DNA of 64,000 nucleotides, taken from NCBI RefSeq assembly GCF_002269385.1, contig NZ_CP022957.1, positions 236,001-300,000 on the forward strand, written 5' to 3'. Shown here in pieces: positions 44,939 to 47,372 of this stretch; the first letter of the stretch is position 1, and the number at the start of each line of letters is the position of its first letter. The stretch comes from Maribacter cobaltidurans (GTDB taxonomy: Bacteria > Bacteroidota > Bacteroidia > Flavobacteriales > Flavobacteriaceae). The notes below the pieces were generated by a model. It worked only from the letters and a program-made list of their open reading frames with translations, was not told the DNA's origin and searched no databases. The position numbers and the translations under genes are program-made.

Positions 44939-46507
44939 TTACTTGGCTACATTAACTGCTCTGGTTTCCCTAATTACAGTAACCTTTACTTGCCCAGGAT
45001 AGGTCATATCCGTTTGTATTTTTTGGGAAATCTCAAATGAAAGTTGTGCAGCCTTTTCATCACTTACCTTTTCACTTTCCACAATTACTCTTAGCTCCCT
45101 ACCGGCCTGTATGGCATATGCTTTTTGCACGCCTCCAAAACCAAAGGCAATTTCTTCTAAATCCTTAAGTCGTTGGATATAGGAATCCAAAACCTGTCTC
45201 CTTGCCCCAGGACGTGCACCACTGATCGCATCACAAACCTGTACAATAGGTGAAATGAGTGTTTTCATTTCAACCTCGTCGTGGTGGGCCCCAATGGCAT
45301 TGCATACCTCTGGTTTCTCTCCGTATTTCTCCGCCCACTGCATACCTAAAATTGCATGCGGAGTTTCTACCTCAGCTTCCGTGTTGGGTACTTTTCCTAT
45401 ATCATGTAACAGTCCGGCCCTTTTAGCAATTTTTGGGTTAAGACCCAATTCCGAAGCCATGACACCGCAGAGCTTGGCAACTTCACGGGAATGCTGCAAT
45501 AGGTTCTGACCATAAGACGAGCGATATTTCATTCTTCCAACGGCCTTTATCAATTCTGGATGTAGTCCATGAATTCCCAGATCTATTACCGTCCGTTTCC
45601 CGATTTCCACGATTTCCGCCTCAATTTGCTTTTCGGTCTTTTTAACGACTTCCTCTATTCTTGCCGGGTGTATTCTACCGTCCGTCACCAACTTGTGGAG
45701 CGATAATCTAGCCACTTCCCTTCTAACGGAATCAAAGCATGACAATATGATGGCCTCTGGCGTATCATCTACAATAATTTCTACACCAGTAGCAGATTCC
45801 AAGGCCCTTATGTTTCTTCCTTCCCTACCTATGATTCTACCTTTAACGTCATCGGATTCTATATTGAAAACCGAAACACAGTTTTCAACAGCTTCTTCCG
45901 TACCTATTCTTTGAATGGTATTGATTACTATTTTCCTAGCTTCCTGCTGGGCAGTAAGCTTTGCTTCTTCCAAAGTAGTCTGGATATAGCCCATGGCATC
46001 CGTCTTGGCGGTATCCCGAAGACTTTCAATCAACTGACTTTTTGCCTCCTCCGCCGATAATCCGGAAATAACTTCCAATTGCTGAACCTGACTTTTATGA
46101 AGCTTATCGACTTCTGCCTGTTTCTTTTCAAAGAACTCTTGCTTATGCTCAACCTCCTTGATCTTGTTCTCCAGTTGGGAATTCAATTGTTTGTTTCTTG
46201 CCAGCTCACTACTCACTTGGGATTCCTTATCCCTTGTTCGCTTTTCCGCTTCATTGATTTTCTTGTCCTTTCCTATTATTACTTTTTCATGTTCTGCCTT
46301 TAACTCCAGGAACTTTTCTTTTGCCTGTAGAATCTTATCTTTCTTTATGTTCTCACCTTCAACCTTGGCCTCCTTTAAAATTTGGGCCGCATCCTTCTTC
46401 GCATTTGCTATTGTTTTGGAGGCCTTGCCTTTCTCCATAAACTTGGCAATGCCAAAACCAATGGCCAAACCCACAATACCCGCTATTATAATCATTGTAC
46501 TATCCAT
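44939..46507 (-). CDS. rny: Ribonuclease Y
   Basis: 522 residues. Endoribonuclease that starts mRNA decay at the membrane. Order: one N-terminal membrane helix (about 4-22), a long coiled coil (about 25-200), a KH domain ([30 protein letters not shown]), and an HD domain with [12 protein letters not shown] and the AHHDEVE segment. All catalytic residues are seen. It is the last gene of the coiled-coil/zapA/6S/rny run; its ATG is 14 bp downstream of the U-tract of the 6S RNA. Confidence 0.97.
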
Positions 46508-46521
46508 AGTTTTATATATTT

Positions 46522-46692
46522 AAAAAAAAGCCCACATTGGAGAAGTTTTGTACAAACTCCGATAAACAGGTTTAGGGCTAACAGGCTGATCAAGGATCCT
46601 TATACTAGTAAGGCATGCTTTTACAACCTAAACTCACCCTTTTTAACTTAATTAATGTTGAGTTCGTCAAAAGGTATTACCAATGTGGGCAG
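46522..46692 (-). ncRNA. ssrS: 6S RNA (Flavobacteriia type)
   Basis: The closing stem is perfect: GCCCACATTGG (46690-46680 on the minus strand) pairs with CCAATGTGGGC (46540-46530), followed at once by eight U residues. Inside are a large asymmetric bubble, a 7-bp stem (CCTAAAC at 46627-46633 with GTTTAGG at 46570-46576, plus-strand coordinates), and an apical hairpin CCTTA/TAAGG near 46598-46612. About 165-170 nt, a long rod with a central bubble: the 6S shape that mimics an open promoter and sequesters RNA polymerase. The location next to zapA matches 6S genes elsewhere. Ends are approximate; no canonical promoter is visible. Confidence 0.85.
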
Positions 46693-46719
46693 TAACTTAA
46701 TGTATTTAAAAGAACGTAT

Positions 46720-47016
46720 TTATTTTGAGGCAAGCTGTAGGTTCACCAATTCCGTTAGGGCCTTTAAACGCTCCTCCGCTTCCAAGGTGCCATTTGTCCT
46801 TTCTATGCCTTTCTGTTCTATTTTGGAGGCAAACTGCAAGGCACACATGGCCAATACATCCTGCTTGTCCCGAACGGCATAGTTCTGCTCAAATTTTTTG
46901 GCCAACTGTTCAATATTTTTGGCTGCTTTTCGCAATCCCTCTTCTTGACTAGGGTCTATTGTCAATGGGTAGACCCTATCAGCGATCGAGAGCTTTATTT
47001 TGAGCTTTTCAGACAT
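46720..47016 (-). CDS. zapA: Cell division protein ZapA
   Basis: 98 residues. ZapA bundles FtsZ filaments at the division ring. The N-terminal strand-helix domain (MSEKLKIKLSIADRVYPLTIDPSQEEGLRKAAKNI) is typical, and the second half is the coiled coil used for tetramerization (DVLAMCALQFASKIEQKG). It is 11 bp after a coiled-coil gene and directly upstream of the 6S RNA, an arrangement shared with distant bacteria. Confidence 0.9.
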   Translation of the reverse strand: MSEKLKIKLSIADRVYPLTIDPSQEEGLRKAAKNIEQLAKKFEQNYAVRDKQDVLAMCALQFASKIEQKGIERTNGTLEAEERLKALTELVNLQLASK

Positions 47017-47027
47017 GGTATTCTACA

Positions 47028-47318
47028 TTATTCCGAAAGTTGTGCTATGCAATAGTCCAACTCTCTTATCAATGTATTTATTTTAAGCTTAGCTTCTGTT
47101 TTATTCGTATTACTGCCAAGCATTGAATTTGCAAGTTTGAGCGAATTATATTTTTCCTCCCATTCAGAAACGGTTCTCCGTGTACTTTCATGATTGGATT
47201 TTATTTGATTTAATTCATTCTCCAACGTCTTATTAGCCTTGTTAAGAACTTCCATTCTATGGAGTAACTTGCTAATTTTATTCTCTAAGGAATCAACGAT
47301 TTGAATTAATTCGCTCAT
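47028..47318 (-). CDS. Small coiled-coil protein upstream of zapA
   Basis: 96 residues, almost entirely heptad-like (ENKISKLLHRMEVLNKANKTLENELNQI), ending in a conserved-looking C-terminal part (INTLIRELDYCIAQLSE). No signal peptide. By size, coiled-coil nature and position it may be a ZapB-like division partner of ZapA, but sequence alone does not prove this. It heads the operon and has a consensus promoter. Confidence 0.82.
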   Translation of the reverse strand: MSELIQIVDSLENKISKLLHRMEVLNKANKTLENELNQIKSNHESTRRTVSEWEEKYNSLKLANSMLGSNTNKTEAKLKINTLIRELDYCIAQLSE

Positions 47319-47341: not shown

Positions 47342-47372
47342 CAAAGTTAACATTCGTTTATAGACTTAGCAA
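47342..47372 (-). promoter_or_regulatory. Bacteroidetes-type promoter of the coiled-coil/zapA/6S/rny operon
   Basis: Minus strand: TTG (47372-47370), 20 bp, TAACTTTG (47349-47342). Both elements match the consensus with ideal spacing; the ATG is 23 bp downstream. Confidence 0.78.

Follow-up and report, generated by a model that had tools for sequence, protein, structure and literature searches.

A boxA-type element ahead of 6S RNA in the zapA-rny interval of Flavobacteriaceae

The window analyzed here, a 64,000-nucleotide stretch of the Maribacter cobaltidurans genome, carries on its minus strand a compact series of features that ends in the gene for RNase Y (rny, 44939..46507, with RNase_Y_N, KH_1, and HD domains). 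The series opens with a predicted operon promoter (47342..47372), made up of a TTG at 47372-47370 and the -7 box TAACTTTG at 47349-47342, which lies 31 nt before the ATG of orf96 (47028..47318). This gene encodes a 96-aa protein for which no Pfam family was matched, and it precedes zapA (46720..47016; PF05164, 67.2 bits), in the place that zapB has in gammaproteobacteria (PMC7641849). Just 3' of the zapA stop lies a boxA-type element, GTTCTTTTAAATA (46703..46715), followed by a 6S RNA gene, a U-tract of 8 T (46522..46529), and a 14-nt spacer without TAnnTTTG (46508..46521); the region from the end of zapA to rny is untranslated. From the sequence we propose that these features form a single module with the order promoter, orf96, zapA, boxA, 6S RNA, U-tract, and rny.

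A preliminary description of this DNA had placed a 6S RNA of the divergent Flavobacteriia type after zapA and ahead of rny and had suggested a covariance search as a check, and that search bears the assignment out: positions 46690-46522 correspond to 6S-Flavo RNA (RF01685), with a score of 105.7 bits against a gathering score of 85 (E value of 1.2e-17), and this was the sole Rfam match in the window at the gathering threshold. The core as Rfam models it spans 46554..46663, and the model stops short of the closing stem, in which the 5' strand GCCCACATTGG (46690-46680) pairs with the 3' strand CCAATGTGGGC (46540-46530). The earlier reading of this stem as a perfect 11-bp helix holds in the letters, as does its account of eight U residues at 46529-46522 followed by 14 nt and the rny ATG at 46507; the inner stem that it gave as 7 bp is present in the predicted fold but is longer, with 13 pairs and one bulge (5' strand at 46660..46672, pairing with 46559-46546). 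The 171-nt RNA folds with a predicted energy of -55 kcal/mol, compared to -34.4 ± 4.2 kcal/mol for 200 shuffled sequences, none of which folded as well (z score of -4.9). Across the 101 loci used for stem counts, the closing stem has a mean of 10.9 of 11 pairs, and the 50 distinct stems among them have a mean of 10.84 pairs; swapping the 3' strands among loci lowers this to 7.70 ± 0.30 (maximum of 8.96 in 2,000 swaps). Because this covariation goes beyond that of swapped partners, we regard the stem as real rather than a product of chance. An RNAalifold analysis of 15 sequences retained the long closed hairpin with its central bubble, with 47 pairs, 21 of which have changes on both sides; judged by these alignments, the Rfam model omits a covarying closing stem that runs into the U-tract. 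A TACT directly 5' of the closing stem (46691-46694) is present in 86 of the 101 loci and is unpaired in the predicted fold, and it perhaps marks the 5' end of the 6S RNA or a cut site.

This arrangement is a conserved feature of the Flavobacteriaceae. RF01685 gave a match in 247 of the 249 sampled genomes of the family, 232 of them scoring over the cut-off, and in 42 of 60 genomes of relatives (34 over the cut-off), and we read 130 loci from these matching genomes, a few of which are shared between the two sets. The neighbors include rny at 128 of these loci, zapA at 129, and orf96 at 129, and the 6S gene lies between zapA and rny at 127. Leaving out L018 (where the contig ends near the 6S gene), L072 (lacking an rny match), and L116 (lacking a zapA match), the Rfam core starts 45 to 75 nt past the zapA stop and ends 44 to 259 nt ahead of the rny ATG (127 loci). 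The spacer from the U-tract to the rny ATG has a median length of 21 nt (range, 12 to 224 nt) and is 30 nt or shorter at 110 of 128 loci; the 16 spacers longer than 45 nt (46 to 224 nt, among them those of L048, L049, L051, L066, L067, L069, L076, L089, L090, L110, L111, and L129) contain hairpin-like repeats by eye and no TAnnTTTG. A contig scan placed 108 of 119 6S stretches, among the matches listed, after zapA and/or before rny, and the other 11 next to neither. Two individual loci deserve mention: L072, a single case from a 1.2-Mb genome (G202), has no rny match within 2 kb after the 6S gene, and its box and U-tract look eroded too, while in L026, from an incomplete genome (G009), the best rny match covers residues 1 to 250 only, perhaps owing to a frameshift or an assembly error.

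The block after the zapA stop has the general form GTTCTTTaAAaTA. Among the 129 loci with a zapA stop, GTTCWTTDAMATA with at most two mismatches was found in 110, compared to 0.8% of windows of equal length from these loci, and the stricter rRNA pattern GTTCATTDAMATA was found in 102, compared to 0.25% of control windows, although these loci are related by descent and are therefore not independent cases. The other 19 mostly have a form that is one base longer or shorter, and no box was recognizable by eye in about 6 of the 129 (L072, L114, L115, L117, L119, and L125) or in L116, which falls outside this set. The same element recurs in ribosomal RNA operons of the family: all eight Flavobacteriaceae genomes compared have GTTCATTAACATA or a near form (at most one mismatch) in the 16S leader, approximately 120 to 160 nt before the 16S gene, and seven of these eight have GTTCATTGACATA in the 16S-23S spacer, the spacer of the window genome being without such an element. 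The 16S leader of the window genome carries GTTCATTGAAATA, which differs from the window's 6S box at 2 of 13 positions. Because it follows the rrn -7 box TATATTTG in the 16S leaders, the element is transcribed there. Three more distant genomes of the order yielded no exact leader copies and one leader copy with one mismatch, together with spacer copies with zero, one, and two mismatches. The element before the 6S gene thus agrees with the rRNA boxA of its own lineage. The sequence also puts it between a promoter and the 6S RNA, on the strand that is transcribed; a NusB gene is also encoded. The motif is not enriched genome-wide, with 83 sites (at most one mismatch) in the window genome, one of them the 6S box, compared to 76 for the reversed pattern; seven other copies had no Rfam match at the gathering threshold, and the motif alone is therefore not diagnostic.

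We examined where the locus could be transcribed from by searching for TAnnTTTG, the flavobacterial sigma-A -7 box (PMC9723704), in 99 loci that have all the needed anchors; this set comprises 1 of the 30 loci from the set of relatives, which avoids near-copies, and 100 others, minus those without anchors. All 99 have the box within 250 nt upstream of orf96, and in 97 its distance to the orf96 ATG is 25 to 45 nt and a conserved TTG stands approximately 23 nt further upstream, whereas shuffled sequence would be expected to place one in the 60 nt before orf96 in 9.1 of 99 loci. These positions point to one position-conserved sigma-A promoter, upstream of orf96. Exact boxes are scarce within the genes themselves (orf96, 3 of 99 loci; zapA, 2; 6S, 13, of which 10 sit at the U-rich 5' arm of the inner helix) and occur in none of the 99 zapA-to-6S gaps up to the closing stem, none of the 99 6S-to-rny spacers, and none of the 99 3' halves of the 6S gene. 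We accordingly rejected an exact sigma-A -7 box in either interval as the driver of 6S or rny; with the box upstream of orf96 and absent from both gaps, neither 6S nor rny shows a dedicated promoter. The main reservation comes from a near-consensus site within the 5' half of 6S.

Sites with one mismatch to the -7 box are distributed differently. They are commoner than in shuffled sequence in the 5' half of the 6S gene (94 of 99 loci compared to 70.7), with one near the 5' arm of the inner helix at 92 loci, and are not above it in the 3' half (67 compared to 73.8), and a TTG lies 16 to 26 nt before the first such site at only 2 of the 99 loci. At the inner-helix arm (approximately 46676-46669) the window has TACCTTTT, and TATTTTTT or TTTTTTTG is found elsewhere; this run could reflect promoter mimicry by 6S RNA, a weak promoter, or the chance yield of a U-rich strand. 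The 99 3' halves contain 58 occurrences of TAAACTTG, at which place the window has TAAACCTG. We read these near-consensus runs inside 6S as conserved letters of the RNA, but the inner-helix-arm site and TAAACTTG could also act as weak internal promoters for rny. The preliminary claim that the zapA promoter can serve rny only by read-through of the 6S terminator is upheld in part: with no exact sigma-A box in any of the 99 spacers or 6S 3' halves, rny seems to need read-through, and the possible weak promoters inside 6S are the weak point. The feedback loop proposed in the same description, for the case that RNase Y processes the transcript, is a conjecture.

The end of the 6S gene would have to allow such passage. 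The G+C-rich 11-bp closing stem is followed directly by the U8 tract, as in an intrinsic terminator (the tract is 4 to 11 T long in the 129 loci where it was marked), but the stem encloses 139 nt, in place of the short loop of an intrinsic terminator. A local short-loop terminator before the U-tract was considered and rejected, since a simple scan of this strand returned no such hairpin with a T-run, and the U-tract is therefore served by the long-range closing stem. Stem and tract together may work like a terminator, though not a standard one. For Flavobacterium psychrophilum, termination that is only partial, so that some transcripts extend further downstream, has been given a class of its own (PMC9723704).

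Outside the family, the canonical 6S model RF00013 matched none of 34 class and phylum relatives, and we therefore built a new model, R1. Trained on some of the loci that it finds again, R1 placed a 6S gene in 46 of 148 Bacteroidia genomes, one in each, and the lack of a match in the other 102 is not read as absence. Among the 41 loci outside Flavobacteriaceae, the 110 nt before 6S contain the core GTTC[TA]TT in 22, against a background of 2.4% (248 of 10,236 windows), and TAnnTTTG lies within 30 nt before 6S in 9, against a background of 1.4% (142 of 10,236). Ten loci have neither core nor adjacent TAnnTTTG; three of these (L229, L255, and L257) have box variants, which leaves seven without box, box variant, or adjacent promoter. 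In L229, L237, and L253, TAnnTTTG lies 78 to 83 nt upstream. Both zapA and rny flank the 6S gene in 19 of the 41 loci, 16 of which have the core, and no zapA or rny match was found in the locus in the other 22, 6 of which have it. Some of these relocated loci (L233, L247, and L264; no control) have TAnnTTAG upstream of the box, which is the order seen in rRNA operons. The core is also present in 7 of 10 16S leaders outside the family (30 genomes queried, 11 with a 16S match). The order zapA, box, 6S, and rny is kept in L145 and L146, and likewise in L148 with a box variant. In seven loci where zapA adjoins rny without 6S, no core was seen by eye in the stretch that follows the zapA match and leads up to rny, and the scripted range that includes zapA gave one core, in L152. 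Twelve deep-branching members of the phylum have a 6S-like stretch before rny whose Rfam support is below threshold, and a GTTCTTT box is visible upstream, by eye, in five of the 12 (L197, L203, L204, L206, and L208). Three phylum-level loci (L195, L196, and L198; f28) have a 6S-like stretch before rny with no boxA and no clear U-tract by eye.

The presence of a boxA-type element before the 6S gene suggests that 6S RNA may be made much like ribosomal RNA. On balance we favor the view that 6S RNA arises from boxA- and Nus-assisted, rRNA-like transcription of the zapA operon and that rny is expressed by read-through, a reading of function that we infer from arrangement and conservation. As RNA polymerase leaves zapA, NusB-S10 would bind the box, and the Nus complex would hold the nascent 5' end of 6S at the polymerase while protecting the untranslated RNA against Rho. 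In this way the closing stem's 5' strand would stay close by until its partner emerges approximately 140 nt later, as has been proposed for rRNA; the closed stem and U-tract would then end most transcripts and set the 3' end of 6S, cleavage of the zapA message close to the conserved UACU would create the 5' end, and polymerases reading on would make the rny message. Nus factors at rRNA are said to act mainly in folding, by looping the boxA RNA to the polymerase (PMC5725501), and the same reasoning would apply to a stable RNA whose two ends have to come together across 140 nt. More tentatively, and as a proposal that is less likely than not, the mechanism may extend to much of the Bacteroidota, with Nus factors at boxA tethering the 5' strand so that the helix with its 140-nt loop closes in time to serve as a terminator, and with 6S release and rny read-through as two outcomes of a single folding event.

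A different account would keep the block as a genuine boxA whose only task is to prevent Rho termination across the untranslated 6S region and thereby secure the rny message, with no role in 6S folding. That boxA counteracts termination by Rho is established (PMC5725501), and the untranslated interval from zapA to rny would give it scope, but we consider this account unlikely given that the box also precedes the six relocated 6S genes without an rny match in the locus. A smaller chance still attaches to the idea that 6S or rny has its own promoter, of another sigma factor or with a degenerate box that a search for TAnnTTTG would miss, and that the block is a part of that promoter rather than boxA. 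Alternative sigma motifs do exist in flavobacteria (PMC9723704), nine of the class-level 6S genes have a promoter directly in front, and the one-mismatch sites inside 6S are recurrent; however, the same block lies within the transcribed part of rRNA leaders, sites with at most one mismatch in the zapA-to-6S gap are rarer than in shuffled sequence (11 of 99 loci compared to 30.2), and the box core and a TAnnTTTG within 30 nt occur together in none of the 41 class-level loci. It is improbable that the block is instead a processing signal common to rRNA and 6S precursors, such as a cut site (perhaps for RNase Y, which is encoded next door) rather than a NusB-S10 site, because although the block is rich in A and U and close to where the mature 5' end is expected, with TACT directly before most closing stems, its common form fits the gammaproteobacterial boxA pattern GYTCTTTAANA (PMC5725501), and the box-to-stem distance varies from approximately 9 to approximately 100 nt, a spread easier to reconcile with a tether than with a cut site.

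If boxA- and Nus-assisted transcription of 6S is borne out, it would tie a global transcription regulator, the machinery of ribosome synthesis, and RNase Y dosage to one transcript, and an rRNA-type boxA before 6S in many Bacteroidia, even away from zapA and rny, would link two global systems. In Escherichia coli, 6S RNA lowers transcription when growth stops; boxA and the Nus factors, for their part, are components of ribosomal RNA synthesis. The element also bears on the expression of a 6S gene that shows no promoter and on the source of the rny message. In the open-licence PMC literature we found no link of 6S RNA to boxA or NusB and nothing on 6S RNA with zapA in flavobacteria, and we regard the novelty of the association as provisional.

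Several known systems offer points of comparison. The ssrS gene of E. coli has its own promoters, and no boxA was seen by eye in the zapA-ssrS gap of E. coli K-12. The gammaproteobacterial zapA-ssrS arrangement (E. coli K-12; PMC7641849) resembles the present one in that 6S lies directly after zapA on the same strand, but as described there ssrS is followed by fau (ygfA) or EVE genes and not by rny. The published 6S-Flavo RNA (RF01685; Weinberg et al. 2010, PMC2864571) is alike in core sequence and structure. To that core description, the present analysis adds the closing stem, the U-tract, boxA, and the promoter layout. The supplements of Weinberg et al. 2010 reportedly list flanking genes. 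A suggested 6S counterpart of the Bacteroidales type, RF01693 (annotated in Rfam as "6S-Bacteroidales RNA suggested"), was also matched by R1; its loci (L210 to L214) differ from the window in having an adjacent promoter, with TAnnTTTG 22 to 28 nt before the stem, no box, and a locus in which neither zapA nor rny was matched. Product RNAs (pRNAs) have been reported for the 6S RNA of Bacteroides thetaiotaomicron (PMC7366714). The boxA search described in PMC5725501 covered only the regions ahead of protein genes, in gammaproteobacteria, and by its own account left out noncoding RNAs. The boxA/Nus system of rRNA operons (PMC5725501) is alike in the sequence of the element, in its place before a stable structured RNA, and in the long-range closing of that RNA, whereas here the boxA-type element is attached to a 6S RNA.
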